DNA of 64,000 bases, from contig NC_092859.1 of the NCBI RefSeq assembly GCF_032062135.1, positions 38,501,458-38,565,457 of the forward strand. Direction: 5' to 3'. The notes below the pieces were generated by a model, which made no database searches, was not told the origin of the DNA, and worked only from the letters and a program-made list of their open reading frames with translations. Position 1 is the first letter of the stretch. Every line of letters starts with the position of its first letter. Position numbers and translations under genes: made by a program. Positions 11,901-20,900 of the stretch are shown here, one piece after another. The stretch is from Pyxicephalus adspersus (lineage: Eukaryota > Chordata > Amphibia > Anura > Pyxicephalidae).

Positions 11901-14900
11901 CAGATGCCTTTATTTTCAATCATGCTGTGTTTTGGCTTTATGTAGGTATCTTTTATATTTTTACTACTTTTACTATGTGTCCTGATATGGGCGAATCTAC
12001 TTACAGATTAGTACTGCACCCCACATGATATGGGTGTATAATCTATAATGTCTGTTGTAGTGTGAACACATCATTTTCTAATTATATTATTATAAAATCA
12101 ATAATAATACCTTGTTGTTGACATGCACGTCAAATTGATGTAATGACATTTTGTGCCATCAATATATATATATTGCAGTTTTCTCCCCAGACTTTTTTTT
12201 CCGGGTGGGGGGAAACTGTAGCCAGGTGATAAATATATATATATATATTGATTTATTTATTTATTTACAGTATTCTCCCCAGAAATTTTTTTTCAGCCGT
12301 GTGGGGGGAAACTGTAGCCGGGTGATAAAAAAGTGGGTGGGACTAGACAACGAAAATTTGGAGCTCCTAGTTATTTATGCCATAGGTATCCAGTAATCCC
12401 TGCAATTGTGTCAGTGTTCTGCCTACCCCCTATACTTTGTTCCAACTTTCTAATGCCTGGCTTGTTAGAATGTACATTTTTTTTCCATTTTTTGTATTAT
12501 ACCCCAACAGTCCAGTGCTGTGCATTTTAATCCAACTCCCTAGAGTTCCATGTTTTAATTGTGTAATACCTTGTAGTAGTGTAATATTGTGATCAATGTG
12601 GCTTAACAAATGAGGCCTAGTTCACATTGGCAGTAAAAAAATGCCCCTCCTGAGTGACTACTTCTTCGCAACTGCAGGGCCCCTGGAATTGGTAACCGGC
12701 GATAACTGCTGGGCAACTGGGATTGGTAACCGGTGATAACTGCTGGGCACATGGGATTGGTAACCGGTGATAACTGCTGGGCACCTGGGATTGGTAACCA
12801 GTGATAACTGCTGGGCACCTGGGATTGGTAACCAGTGATAACTGCTTGCTGGGCACCTGGGATTGGTAACCGGTGATAACTGCTGTGCCCCTGGGATTGG
12901 TAACCAGTCATAACTGCTGGGCCCCTGAGATTGGTAACCGGTGATAACTGGTGGGCCCCTTGGATTGCTAAGCGGTGATAACTGCCGGGCACCTGGGATT
13001 GGTAACGGGTGATAACTGCTGGGCCCTTGGATTGGTAACCGGTGATAACTGCTCGGCACATGGGATTGGTAGGTGGTAAGTGCTGGGCCCTTGGGATTGG
13101 TAACCGGTGATAACTGCTGGGCACCTGGGATTGGTAATCGGTGATAACTGCTGGTCCCCTGGGATTGGTAACCGGTGATAACTGGTGGGCACCTGGGATT
13201 GGTAATCGATGACAACTGCTGGGCCCTTGGAATTGGTAAGCAGTGATAACTGCTGGGCACCTGGGATTGGTAGGCGGTAAGTGCTGGGCCCCTGGGATTG
13301 GTACCCGGTCATAACAGCTGGGCCCCTGGGATTGTTAACCGGTGATAAGTGCTGGGCACCTGGGATTGGTAACCGGTGATAACAGCTGAGGTAGGTGATT
13401 GAGGTGTAGGTATAGGTAAATGAGATGTAGGTAATTGAGGTATAGGTGAATGAAGGGTGGGTAAGTCAGTAAAAAAAAAGCAAATAGAAATCTGCAATAC
13501 GTACAAATCTCAGTCCAAGCGCTTTGGAGATGCTTCTAGAGAGGCTCCTCAGCAAGCAATGAAAGGCCACAGTTTCAGTGTAGGTACACAAATGGTAGTC
13601 CGTGACAACACAGCTGACTAACAGCTGACTGACCAATGAATGGCCAATCATCCCAACTGATATTCTTTGAAAAATAGTGGTTATTGCTATGAAGCAGTCT
13701 GCCCAAGACCTTACAGCTGGCAGGCCAATGGCCATATCTAGCATTGTATTTTTTTTTTCAATTTACAAAGCTTTATTTAGGAGCAAGACATTTATAAAGA
13801 AAATGATGATTATTTGGTGTGTCCATGGCGATCAGCCTGTATGTACAAGGCCTTACAATCCAGCAAGAACTTGTGCCCCTTCCTAGCCATTAAAGGTCCT
13901 CACTGGCTGAAAAATGTGATTTTTACAGGTGTGTTAAAGCTTTGTAAATTATTTACCAATGTTTTTTGAAAGTGAGGCTTGCTTTTTTCAATTCTAGTAG
14001 AGATTTGGAAGATGTAAATGGCATGATTTACTAAGGATCTCCAAGACTGGAGAGGATAAATTATCATGGGAGATCCTGGGTGATCCAGCAAACCTGATAT
14101 GTATTTGGATAATGATTGAAAACATTTACCAAATTATAGGAAATGATTTTAAGGAATCCATTCCAGGTATGCTGGATCACTCAGGTTCTTTTATGATAGT
14201 CTATTGTCTCCATTCTTTGAGAGTTTTAGTAAATCAGGCCCAAACCCTTATAAAGCATTGTGACTGCAATCTCCAAATTTAGTCCCTTTGGGCTCCTTAA
14301 AAATACCTTGCTATATTTTTATTAAATAACCAAATCCATACCTTCATGTGTTAGCTTTGTAAATTGGGCCAATAGTATTGAGGGCTTATAAGTTATGAGA
14401 TACCTGAAACCGGTCACCATTTAGTTAGTAGGGTGTTAATAAACTGAGCAAGAATACAGTAATTGTGCCTAGCCTTATGTTGAATACTTTTACTATTAGT
14501 AGTACCAACAAATAAAGATTTTTAAGTTAATAAACTTACAAGCATTCATAAAACCCATAAATGTTATTAACAAATACAATAAAAGTTATATATAAAAACA
14601 ATTCCATAGAAATCACTCTATGGAAATATATATCCACATATCTCCACTATAAACATAAAGTACTTATTTTTCACTCCTCAATATGTTTTATTTTATCCTC
14701 ATCAGAAGGGTGAGATGAAAGACATTATGATTCCTATAATAAACATACATAGTTCTCCCCAGAGGTTTTTAGCCGGTTGCTCCGCCCGGCTGATTTGAAT
14801 ACCCCGCCCAGCTCTCTGCAGCTCTCATCCTCGGATGAACGGATCTCAGTGAGGCTGCTCTGTGCTCTGAGCCATCCGTCCAGAGGATTGCTGCCGTCGA

Positions 14901-17900
14901 GCACACAGCTCAGCCTTCATGTGAAGGAGACACAGGCAGCCCCGCCCCCATCTCATAGCACGAGCTCGGATTTTTGCCTATGAAATGTATCCAGTGTGTA
15001 TAAAGTATCCATGTCATTCTGCATCCTCCCAGCTCTGTGTACAAACCTCCATATCTCCTAATATGTATGTCACAATGACATGTAATTTTCACGGTGTACA
15101 GGGGACCATCATAGATACTAGTTACTACAATTTCAGCCCCCCAGCTTTAAACAATTTCAAGATATCGGGGTCACAAATGTAAAAAGTTATGAAAATTGAA
15201 CCTTGGGGTTGCTGTTTCAGAGAAAAGTTCAACTAGGAGTCCTAAATTGAAAGTGCAAATTAGGTACCCCGGAGCCACTAACATAGCAAGGAGCATTGGG
15301 GTGGGGCCCCTAAATATATGCCTACCTGTCACAAATCTATACCTATGAAACTACTGTCTGACTATGGCATCATTAGAAAATGAACTCTGCCCACTAAATT
15401 TTTTTGAGGTTGAGGTACTGTAAGGGTACAGTCATATGCAACAAGGAAGTGCATTTTGATGGACAGTTTGTTTTTTTTTTTTAATGATCCCATGGTGATA
15501 AAAGGTGATCATGCCATAGTAATTACATTTTAGAAAGGTTTAGCCACAAGTGTCCCCCACTTGCACCTACAGTTTCAGTTTCCTATGCCTCTACCTTACA
15601 AAATTTAGTTCGTTGTATTAACTTTAAAAGTTAATTCAACAAATGGTTTAGGAGATCTGAAGGTTTGAACACAGCGAGTTGTTAGGCTGCAGAATATGAC
15701 AAGCAGCTTTTACACTCACATAGCGATCACGCTGCGCCCTATCTGATATCACATGCATGATGCTATTAAAGCATCTCCACATTTTTAATATTATATTAAA
15801 GAGCGACTTTCTCTGTTATGTAATAGAAAAATGTGTGTTTTTTTTTTTTTGTTTTTACACTTTTGTGGAGAGGACCCTCTCCCCTTCACTTCCATTTCGG
15901 TAAAGACCGAAGGGGAAATCCACAGCCTCCTGGGATATTTGTGTCACAATATGCTCCTTGTGTGCATGCATCTTCAGAGGATTTCTTATAATGTAAAAGA
16001 AGTGTTCAATCTAATGCATGCGCAGTGCAAGGCAGCACTGGATGTACAAGTGAGCGTTAGAGACAAGGTGGAAGCTGAGCCAGCATGGGCCTGCTGGGCT
16101 AATTTTGTAAAAGATTCAAGTGAAAAAAAAATGTTTTCACAAAAGTTCTATTTATTTATTTATTTACAGTATTCTCCCCAGAAATTTTTTTCAGCCGTGT
16201 GGGGGGAAACTGTAGCTGGGTGATAAAAAGTGGGCGGGGCTAGACACCGCAAATTTGGAGCTCCTAGTTATTTATGCCATAGGTATTCAGTAATCCCTGC
16301 TATTGTGTCAGTGTACTACCAACCCCCTATACTTTGTTCCAACTTTCTAATGCCTGGCTTGTTAGAATGTACATTTTTTTTCCATTTTTAGTATTATACC
16401 TCAACAGTCCAGTGCTGTGCATGGCTGGGCACCTAGGATTGGTAACCGGTGATAACAGCTGGGGACCTGGGATTGGTAACCGGTGATAACAGCTGGGGAC
16501 CTGGGATTGGTAACTGGCAGTAAGTGCTGGGCTTTTCAGACCTAGCAGTTTTTCAAGCAGCATTGTTTCCATGCAAAAGGAATGTGAGGGGTAAACGCAG
16601 CAACCTTACTGCCACTGTGAATTCAGCCTACCTTCACATGTCACCTCCTAGCGCTATTCCTATGTAATACAAAGAGCATCATGTATGTGATTGCAGATGG
16701 GGGTAGGACAAAAACATCCTGTGAAATGTATCCACCCGCAGTATGATCGCTGTGTTTGTAAAGTCTGCTTGTCATGTTCTGCAGTATAACAAGTCATTGC
16801 GCTCAATCCTTTAGATCTCCTAAATTGTTGGTTGTAATTACCTAAAATGTTTAGGGTACACAGGGGACTCTCATAGCTACTAATAACCAACATTTCTTTT
16901 TTTAGTTTCAAAATTTCAAAATATGGGGATCATGAGTTTAAAAACTTGTGGAAATTGGAAGATTTGGGTGAATGTTTGTAAGAAAGTGCACCTAGGAGCC
17001 CAAAATGGAAAATGCAAATTAGGACCCCCAGGGCCACTTACATAGTAAGAAGCATTGGGGTGGCCCCTCCTATATATTTTTCCTACCTTTCACCAAACTA
17101 TAACTGTAATTCTATGCTGCCCTTTCTGCTTCTGTTCTTCTAATCGCAATTTATCTGGAATGGGGAGGTGCAGAAAACTGAAAATGTAGATGCAAGAGTG
17201 GAACAGATGTATAAACCCCTAAAATTTCATTAGCGTGGCATCATTAGAACATAAAAACCTCAGTACATCAAACTGTCCGCTTCCCTACCTTGAACCCCAA
17301 TTTCTCTACAACAGAGAGATGCAGGTAAACAGAATTAAAGGGGCAAATGGGGGACATTTGTGGCTAACATCCTTCAAACTTTCATTTCCATGGCATCAAT
17401 ATGTAAAGTCTGCCCATGAAAACCTGCTGCCCTGTTACACATGACTTACCCTACCAGTACCTAAACCCCAATGTCGTTTTGATTGGCAGAGTTTTTTATG
17501 TTCTAATGATGCCAAAAAACTTTAGGGGGTGTTATCGACAGATGTTCCCCACACATTTTCAGTTTCCTACTCCTCCCAATTCCAAGGAAATTGGGTTTCC
17601 AGTGTTAGAAATGGGCAGTAATGTGTAACAGGGCAGTGTGTTTGCCATAGTAATGAAATTTTAGTGTGGGTGGGTTATCGAAATTCCCCCCCCCCTCAAA
17701 CAAGAGAAGCAGACGGGGTAACATAGTATGACAATTATAGATTTGTGAGAGATAAGTATAACTTTAGGGGCCCTTCCCCAATACTCCTTACTATGTAAGT
17801 TGTCCCGGGGGTACCCAATTTGCTTTTTTGATTTAGGACTCCAAGGCGCACTTGCTTTTAATACTACAACCCCAATGTTGTATTTTCACAAGATTTTACA

Positions 17901-20900
17901 ATTCTGATCCCCATATCATGAAATTTGTAAAAGCTGGGGTGCTGAAATTGTGAATGGTGCTAACTATAGGTTTTCCCTGTGCACCCTGAAAATTACAAAT
18001 CATTATGACTAACAGTTTAGGGTATATGAAGGTTTATACACAGAGCTGTAAGGCTGAGGAATGTGACACGCTGCATTTATACACACACTGCTCTGATGAC
18101 ATCATTACACACACCCACTGGGCGGAGACATTGTTTGCACGATGTTAATTTTTTTTTTCTCTCCAGAAGACCTGGCACAGCGAGAGGGGTAGGGACAGCC
18201 TGTGATCTCCTCATAGCTGTGCTGTGCTCTCCTCACTCCGCCCGGCTCTAATCAGCTATCAGCTCTTATCAGCGGAGAACGGAGCGGGCAGAGCAGCCTC
18301 TCCGGTATCCGTTCAGAGCTGCTGAAACTGTGCCAGGCAGAATAATCACAGCAGGCGGGCGTCCCGCCCCCCAAAAATGGGCTGGGGAGAACTATGAGCT
18401 ACATGTAGATCAACTTGTTGGTTCCCACTAGCAGCTGATATATCTGTTTTGGTTGTAATCGCTTCTCGGCCTTTTGGCTAAGATCAAGTGTAGTATCTGT
18501 TCTTATCAGTGTTCAGGGTTGGAAAGGGCACTAGCATCTTAGGAGAGGGATGCTGTGCCTGAGTACCTCTGTTAAGGACGGTCTACCTCTGGTGTAGCTC
18601 TGTAAGGGGCCGCCCTATGCAAACCTGCCGGCGTGGTGAACCGGAGGAAGAGCTTGGGCCTGCCCTGATAAGGAGCTCCCAGAGGCTTGACTGACCCGCT
18701 GGTGAGGATGGAGAAAAGCTTGGTCTTACCAATCGGTCTGACGAGCGGTCCGAATCTCGCCCCAGTGTCGTACCCCTGGAGTGGCGAACCAGGGGCACCT
18801 TAAAATCACGGGTTTGGGACCCCACTAGATTTTTTGGTTGCACAGTGCACGGCACTGTTTATATTTTGGATTCGGCACATCGCCTTAATCTGCATTAGCT
18901 GCGGCTAGTGTCAGAATGGGCAATTTTTAAAATCTGTTGCCCTGTGTGTTATGCACGGAGCACTTATTATTTAAATGTTTTTTATGTTTTGTCACTGTCA
19001 CTGGTGTGGTATTTGTGTGCCACTTTTTTGATGGAGGGTGCTATTCCCTTATGGGCTAGCCCTGAAGTCTTGGAGAGTGCCTTGGCCTAAAAACCAGGCG
19101 CTCTCCCTCAGTGGGAGTCTCTCTTCGGGAGAGCTCCCAGCTTAGTATCTTGTGGGACCTGCATGGGCGGGTCCCAGAGAGAAAAGGCCCCTCTCTGGCT
19201 TCGGTCAGGGGGGCATGTGTGTCCATCCCGGCTTCGGCTGGGTGGGCTTAGTATCCAGCCCTCGTCTGGAGCTTCGCTTCGGAGGGTCTGGAGAAAAAGG
19301 GTGGCCCTTCCTCTTTTGAGGAGGGATTACCAAATAGTACCCCAGTGCACGTTTTTTGTGTGGTGTTTTTGCACTTACACTTTTTTACCGTCACGGGGTG
19401 TGTTTAGCACGGATCGCGAGATTCAAAAAAAAAAAAAAAAAAAAAAAAAATCTGTTTTGGTTGTAATTGGCCTTTAATGAGTGGACTATTTATAATAATA
19501 CTTTATGGCAGCATGCATCATTAGTGTGTTAGTCAGAGCTCAAGAAAGCATCACTGCAGTCTTCATTTATCTGAGCATGATCAGAATTAACTTGAGATTT
19601 AGTGCTGTGTGATTGAGGCTGTTAGGATGATAAATTGCTTTGTCTCTATGGAGTTTCTCCAATGAGATTTCTTCTGCATCCTTACATTCCCATTCATATC
19701 ATCCCATGGAACTGTACAAAAAGCCAATTGTCAATCCCATCTGTGTTTTCCCATCTCTCAGCTGGTGTTTTCCCAGACATTACTGGGCTGTCCTCATTTG
19801 ACATGAGCTCAGGGCATGTTCTGCATGTGAAGCTGACATCTGTCCCTTTTATGTCCTCTCTGATTTTTCTAGCTGCAAGAGCAAGCTGTACTCGGCCAAG
19901 CTGCCAAACACCAGTGTGATCATCCCTTTCCACAACGAAGGGTGGTCATCCCTCCTGCGTACAGTACACAGCGTCCTCAATCGTTCTCCACCTGAGCTCA
20001 TCGCAGAGATTGTGCTTGTTGATGACTTCAGTGATAAAGGTGTGTGCGGGGGGTTTTCAGTGTGATATCAGTCATTGAAAAATCAAGCTGTGTATAGGGG
20101 TCAGTATCCAAATCTTTCATATTTTATCCTTGCCATTCAGGTTTGTAAGATTCTTTAGTATCTGACCTTTCATCCCTTAGGTATTTGTTTTTCTTACAGT
20201 ACAGCACCAACACTGAAGCACTGAAAGTTCTGGACCCACTGGATGGAAAAGCTTAAGATTTAGCTTAAAAGATGGAAAAGCTTAAAAGATTTGTGTAACT
20301 TCACCATAAACTAGAAAACTAAGGCCACACAAGTATTCCTGCTCAGTGTAGAATAGAGGGATACATAATCACATTTTTAAGGCAGTTATTATTTACTTTT
20401 ATTTATAAAGCCGCAACATACCTTGAGACTTAAATTGACAGACATACATAGAAGGAGAAGAGCACTAAGAGAAGGGAAGACAATCTTAATACTAACTTAT
20501 AGGGCCTGATTTATTAAAGCTCTCCAAGGCTGAAGAGGATACCATTTCATCAGTGAAGCTGGGTGATCCAGCAAACCTCGAATGGATTTCTTTAAAGTAA
20601 TTTGCTATTTGCTAGACCAGATCCATTCCAGATTTGTTGGATCAAAGTGTATCCTTTCCAGCAATGGAGAGCTTTATTCAGTCTGGCTCATGGATGAAGG
20701 AGCAAATCACAGAAGCTCAGTTGGAACAGTGTGACACTGGCTATAGGTCAAAGACCACCAGATTAGTTAGATGTTGAATTTTTATTCAATCTGGTTTTAG
20801 TCCCAATCAAGGTGGAAAATTATAGCCACCCTAACTCATTTGCTTTCTGTCTTCTGTTTTCTAAAAATATTCTTTTAATTCCCCAACTTTTCTTATTGCT

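Follow-up and report, generated by a model that had tools for sequence, protein, structure and literature searches.

The element described here, which lies within the window (the whole 64,000-nt stretch of Pyxicephalus adspersus DNA that was analysed), is among the youngest copies of a family of dispersed, U2 snRNA-headed sequences and is not a one-off. The members of this family have a head-body junction in common, show no coding signal, carry target-site duplications and A tails of their own, and often start at U2 nt 1. The element is probably a young copy of a non-autonomous retroposon of the SINEU kind that would be amplified from sources residing in U2 genes, transcribed by RNA polymerase II and copied by LINE machinery, with a head that could be renewed from U2. 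To our knowledge, only a few SINEs carry snRNA heads, and the means by which they are transcribed once separated from an snRNA promoter are not settled. In the present family, the two head versions can be mapped onto a tree, part of a body lies within a U2 gene, some copies are very young, and LINEs that target U2 are joined to the same heads; the idea of promoter borrowing thereby becomes directly testable.

The window copy and the dispersed family

A sequence-only reading of this locus had described a retro-insertion flanked by exact 18-bp direct repeats, with U2 nt 1-53 at the very 5' end joined to 914 bp of GC-rich, stem-loop-rich sequence devoid of coding capacity and of AATAAA, and these features are all borne out (Table 1). 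The repeats are 100% identical over 18 nt, with the duplication and U2 overlapping by the first two bases of the latter (AT), and the head matches the Rfam U2 model RF00004 with 63.5 bits (gathering score 46, E 3.5e-10) in an alignment that is firm over approximately the first 53 positions, the remainder of its nominal span to 18628 consisting of large unaligned gaps. The GC content of the element is 52% vs 39% for the window; the folding energy is -439.7 kcal/mol (z = -8.6, 20 shuffles); the longest stop-free stretch, at 111 aa, is at the level of single-base shuffles (mean 109, 200 shuffles); and neither AATAAA nor ATTAAA occurs in the window element, GATAAAA preceding or beginning the A tail in many other copies. 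The tail had been read as 26 A's, of which 25 stand, the last being the first base of the 3' duplication. The window element had no match in the phage collection searched.

Table 1. Anatomy of the U2-headed element (positions in the window)
Feature	Position	Strand	Remarks
5' target-site duplication; last two bases double as U2 nt 1-2	18442..18459	+	exact 18-nt direct repeat
U2 snRNA-derived head, nt 1-53 (U-type head)	18458..18510	+	RF00004; identical junction elsewhere in the family
U2 nt 37/38, the site at which LINE poly A is joined in U2 genes and in the heads of other copies; unbroken in the window copy	18494..18495	+	
Head arm of the 16-bp head-body helix (U2 nt 39-53 and one base)	18496..18511	+	16/16 pairs
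Body, 914 bp: GC-rich, highly structured, non-coding	18511..19424	+	
Body arm CGCTGGTGAGGATGGA, complementary to U2 nt 39-54	18697..18712	+	
A tail, 25 A	19425..19449	+	
3' target-site duplication	19450..19467	+	exact 18-nt direct repeat

The same reading had left two options, a single template-switch product or a copy of an amplified family, and favoured the latter, proposing a junction search to decide between them. Whole-genome pattern scans allowing at most three mismatches located the U2(1-53)/body junction 48 times and a second junction, U2(1-38)/body, 124 times, with no match in the reversed control in either case; with no mismatches allowed, ten copies were recovered, again with none in the reversed control. 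A search with the whole element produced 42 matched stretches, 33 of them spanning at least 900 of the 967 bp, with identity of 84-100% (best 40 of 668 candidate places). Exact flanking duplications of at least 10 nt (10-22 nt) were detected in 25 of 52 rows, a count that covers exact matches only, the rows without one including LINE-joined, truncated and older copies. Thus, the family is real. A one-off chimaera, produced by a LINE reverse transcriptase that jumped once from some RNA onto U2 snRNA, would fit a 5' end at U2 nt 1, the A tail and the duplication, and jumps or deletions do happen within the family, as at L053, but this explanation is refuted by the junction common to so many copies and absent from the reversed control, and by the divergence of U2-headed copies down to approximately 77% identity (L091), leaving it with hardly any probability. 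At L053 itself, the missing segment has the look of an intron (GTAAGG...TTTAG); splicing was nevertheless rejected because GTGTTTAG is retained at the junction, which points to internal deletion or a template jump instead.

Twelve of the 48 U2(1-53)/body junction matches end in GGA rather than GGG. The three such places that were read, L092, L093 and L094, match the family profile with E-values of 3e-22, 2e-49 and 2e-13, respectively, which include the U2 head, possibly the source of most of the score in L094; the body of L092 alone still matches the profile (E 1.5e-8). The 5' end falls at U2 nt 1-2 in 26 of 64 family loci, at nt 3-12 in 16, at nt 15 in one and at nt 38-50 in 11, which are joined to a LINE end; the remaining 10 start beyond position 150. 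Four loci (L018, L019, L043 and L048) all start at one place of one repeat, between GT and AA, and L034/L035 lie about a dozen base pairs off. The duplications are exact at L018 and L043 and near-exact at L048, and each repeats sequence specific to its locus, so that these three loci represent separate events; at L019, no duplication was found. A pattern scan for poly A combined with the hotspot gave two weak matches and was uninformative. Many duplications start at a boundary resembling that between T and A, which suggests that the LINE machinery that would copy the family RNA into nicks is probably of the APE type.

Of the ten copies whose junction has no mismatch, three, namely L052 (C2:117067471-117067598, with an exact 17-bp duplication), L051 (C2:91915873-) and L004 (C2:138599952-), are young, cut at the 3' side at positions 136, 96 and 271, respectively, and devoid of an A tail, and are reminiscent of 'tailless' retropseudogenes. 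In L034 (C6756:211-1155), a second partial U2 (approximately nt 5-24) precedes nt 1, as if synthesis had switched back to U2.

By structure, the family can be considered a long variant of SINEU, apparently the closest known kind. Kojima is said to have defined SINEU in 2015 as SINEs with heads derived from U1/U2 snRNA genes, and SINEU-1 reportedly displays recurrent head addition and a preference for one repeat as target. The likeness is that of a multicopy non-coding retroposon with a U2 snRNA head: here too, the head is U2-derived by its RF00004 match, and the amplified, dispersed copies have a common head-body junction and are non-coding. As reported for SINEU-1, heads change on the tree of the family, and four loci share one start in one repeat. 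The differences are the 914-bp body, long for a SINE, heads that end at nt 38 or nt 53, and another host; the two are likened by description and not by sequence. Retropseudogenes of snRNAs and LINE/snRNA chimaeras likewise combine an snRNA 5' end, an A tail and duplications, but do not have one junction common to many copies with subfamilies, as this family does. The literature matches listed include no amphibian report of such a U2-headed family, which is weak evidence of absence.

Two head versions and the head-body helix

Two head versions, their apparent exchange, LINE ends within heads and a helix between head and body all lay beyond the sequence-only reading. In the nt-38-type copies, U2 ends at nt 38 (...AAGTGTAGTA joined to CCTAATCCTTCCAGTGATCAGGG), and in the younger, U-type copies, at nt 53 (...AGTATCTGTTCTTATCAGT joined to GTTCAGGG). 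The nt-38 and nt-53 stretches are equally long up to a common CAGTG, and the nt-38 head may therefore have arisen by replacement or heavy mutation of this stretch instead of being shorter. In a comparison of the scans by eye, each of the 21 matches to the start of the nt-38-type body with no mismatch recurred in the junction scan, preceded by GTAGTA or a close variant.

On a tree of bodies only (48 rows), the head label requires four changes, three of which are forced by starred branches, and a single head origin was obtained in 0% of 200 bootstrap trees; that none of 500 label shuffles was as low shows label clustering only. The most distant bodies, L092 and L094, carry U-type heads, and therefore the nt-38 head is not simply ancestral. 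L093 (U-type) pairs with L091 (nt-38 type) with support 100/100, and the young U-type clade of 28 rows is nested within nt-38-type bodies (96/98). Given that L092 and L094 are long branches and that ten rows fill less than half of the columns, individual placements deserve less confidence than the mixing as a whole. A mosaic structure is visible in L007, with a young, U-type stretch in the first ~200 bp and an older remainder. This tree suggests that several head replacements took place in the history of the family. With sources in U2 genes, the head would be renewable from U2, which would account for the alternation of heads ending at nt 38 and nt 53 on the body tree.

In the window copy, U2 nt 39-54 pairs without a break with the body arm (16/16 including G-U, dG -20.3), and when the first 400 nt of the body were dinucleotide-shuffled 300 times, no shuffle reached an energy as low; three other 17-nt pieces of the head are unremarkable, with 169, 107 and 14 of 200 shuffles as low. 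The best partner of the head lies at the homologous place in seven of eight sequences tried, the exception being L092. Such pairing is rare by chance only in the window copy, L058, L093 and L091 (0, 0, 5 and 6 of 300 shuffles as low, respectively), with corresponding values of 39, 50 and 67 for L033, L090 and L094; the nt-38-type heads among these (L033, L090 and L091) use the same partner place with weaker pairing. The register is well defined, in that 125 of 144 cells pair, vs 62-88 when the arms are slid by 1-4. Covariation is not supported in the helix, where 574 of 2000 random re-deals of the body arms among nine rows gave at least the observed count, or in an RNAalifold analysis of nine whole elements, with a covariation term of +1.89 and both sides changed in 19 of 296 pairs. 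The mean duplex energy with the cognate vs the other head was -17.4 vs -15.1 for U-type rows (37 rows) and -16.5 vs -15.2 for nt-38-type rows (15 rows), the rows including a few wrongly picked, among them L082, L087 and L089; the cognate head is thus favoured only a little. The helix may be structural, or else a trace of how U2 sequence was taken up.

Source loci and transcription

The sequence-only reading had further supposed that the master of such a family is transcribed from a U2 promoter, perhaps after insertion into a U2 gene. One part of this supposition has a counterpart in the genome: at L080 (C4:5143.3-5143.7 kb), a LINE poly A is followed by U2 nt 38-53, body positions 54-303, the 8-nt TTAATTAA, U2 nt 44-192 and the usual U2 3' flank, and thus part of the body is embedded in a U2 gene. 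U2 nt 44-53 (TCTTATCAGT) is found on each side of the body, that is, as a 10-nt duplication of U2 sequence. By its sequence, L080 has the structure expected if the body had inserted into a U2 gene behind nt 53; alternatively, a full copy could have landed in a U2 gene, with one of the two heads subsequently lost by recombination. L080 and its neighbour L081 are the first branches of the young U-type clade. The other part of the supposition fared less well: L080 is broken and holds 250 bp of body only, another LINE lies directly upstream of its LINE with a U2 fragment between the two and no readable promoter, and an intact U2 gene with a promoter and a full-length body was not found among the places scored.

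A query composed of 20 bases of the U2-array promoter and the head showed the U2 promoter to be absent from family copies among the best 40 of 411 candidates: alignments of family copies begin at query base 15 or beyond, and the only places that extend further into the promoter, C128 and C4:7845516, belong to U2 arrays. Because the scored family copies keep no U2 promoter, amplification from sources inside U2 genes is the best reading. Under this scheme, U2 genes would harbour the body, now or in the past, and RNA polymerase II would make RNA from the U2 start site, which would explain the 5' ends at nt 1.

Alternatively, the masters might lie outside U2 genes, with U2 snRNA repeatedly added to the 5' end in the course of reverse transcription, helped by the U2-complementary body segment, and with transcription from chance neighbouring promoters. 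The head changes on the body tree, the 16/16 head-body complementarity and the lack of a promoter-bearing source among the same best 40 of 411 candidates are all compatible with such renewal, but it leaves unexplained both the U2-embedded body at L080 and the nt-38 head end beside the LINE junction at nt 37/38, and readthrough would place so many 5' ends at nt 1 only if every event added U2 anew, so that we regard it as unlikely. Another possibility is a polymerase III SINE the dispersed copies of which transcribe themselves from an A-box-like motif contributed by the U2 head and a B-box-like motif contributed by the body. Scored against what we take to be the consensus of the two boxes, TGGCTAAGATC has one mismatch to the A box and GGTCCGAATCT two mismatches to the B box, in the window copy as well as in the consensus, but equally good matches to the boxes, all imperfect, occur elsewhere in the element, and the two motifs are approximately 270 nt apart. 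Furthermore, polymerase III stops at runs of T, and the seven body runs of at least five T that the window copy and the consensus each contain argue against this polymerase, making self-transcription quite unlikely. Sources inside U2 genes, transcribed by RNA polymerase II, thus remain the preferred reading.

The origin of the body was sought in the LINEs that accompany U2. Derivation from a LINE 5' region is not supported, given that a comparison with 12 LINE 5' segments, most of them from U2 arrays, gave one 25-nt match (E 0.36), and the window element and the LINE 5' regions compared have no clear sequence in common beyond U2. A profile of 33 copies matches LINE-bearing loci mostly in the U2 part, with few matches extending some tens of bases beyond. 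In a search with the 3' 265 bp of the element, all 40 scored places (best 40 of 414 candidates) were family copies, with no LINE partner seen.

U2 genes, U2-targeting LINEs and family heads

The U2 genes are clustered on C4, at about 5.14-5.22 and 7.84-8.43 Mb, in a search that scored the best 46 of 83,610 candidates and may thus miss uninterrupted genes. At all 20 U2 loci read, an A run that closes a LINE-like sequence meets the 3' part of U2 at nt 38, and where the next gene is readable, U2 breaks off at approximately nt 22-36 and the 5' region of a LINE follows. The U2 arrays, at 5.14-5.37 and 7.84-8.43 Mb (loci L059-L078, L083, L084, L087 and L095), are crowded with LINEs, some of which are arranged in tandem, separated by a U2 fragment (L095).

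In one LINE that adjoins a family copy on C2, a reverse transcriptase domain (PF00078, 98.8 bits) was identified; no endonuclease domain was listed for this LINE in the one reading frame scanned. It contains an SDH motif, which we take to be typical of APE endonucleases, and on this motif together with the target site rests the label Keno-like for the LINEs joined to U2 genes. The window element differs from such LINEs in showing no coding signal, that is, in encoding neither reverse transcriptase nor endonuclease, and in that this copy lies outside U2, between 18-bp duplications of non-U2 sequence, instead of being inserted at nt 37-39. As to the target, the published description places that of Utopia (RLE-type) at U2 nt 39, with Keno (APE-type), which occurs in frogs, using the same place (PMC4640811), and the LINE ends found here, meeting U2 at nt 37/38, agree with the site so described for both.

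The same LINE ends are found in family heads. Poly A joined to nt 38 of a U-type head gave 13 matches, one of which (3 mismatches) is doubtful; eight of the 13 are on C4, and eight were read as sequence (L012, L013, L038, L042, L055, L080, L081 and L085), the doubtful match belonging to the other five. For the nt-38-type head, five poly A-joined matches were found, including L036, which is a head deletion without a LINE. LINE-joined heads are accordingly rarer in the nt-38 type (4/126) than in the U-type (13/61; p = 1.3e-4), and also with C4 left aside (2/~112 vs 5/46, p = 0.02), these latter counts being made by eye and ~112 being an estimate from the 100 of 124 junction matches listed. The view of the LINE ends was confined to their 3' side. 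One of them, at C2:7253796, was traced further upstream: there, the LINE is 5'-truncated and neither the front half of U2 nor a duplication was found, which speaks against a clean insertion of the LINE into the head at this locus; some LINE-joined heads may thus be joint copies of LINE and element and not insertions into standing heads. L034 and L035, which are 94.8% identical over 1134 bp, look like one place without (L034) and with (L035) a LINE in the head, the LINE being seen from the near side.

As part of the preferred reading, the U-type head would recreate the landing site of U2-targeting LINEs, the ends of which are joined to a fraction of these heads.

These observations can be joined with the amplification scheme in a broader picture, which we put forward tentatively and consider rather improbable as a whole. 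The family would be a promoter-borrowing retroposon with sources in U2 genes and RNA that starts as U2, in which the body segment complementary to nt 39-54 keeps the head in a helix and may aid the pickup of a fresh head. The spread of U2 heads would also create new LINE landing sites. The nt-38 head, with no LINE site beyond nt 38, would be an escape form, as suggested by the lower frequency of LINE-joined heads of this type. Apart from this picture, the family itself suggests that a host gene array, the LINEs specific to that array and a non-coding passenger may be in three-way conflict.

At L041 (C4:8062775-8063192), a 5'-truncated family copy with its own 14-bp duplication lies in a LINE inside a U2 gene and, going by this locus, family elements and LINEs seem to have each landed in the other. 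Elsewhere in the window, a 34-bp minisatellite of 21 copies occupies positions 12670-13388, and a smaller block with a very similar unit is located about 3 kb off, at 16424-16514.
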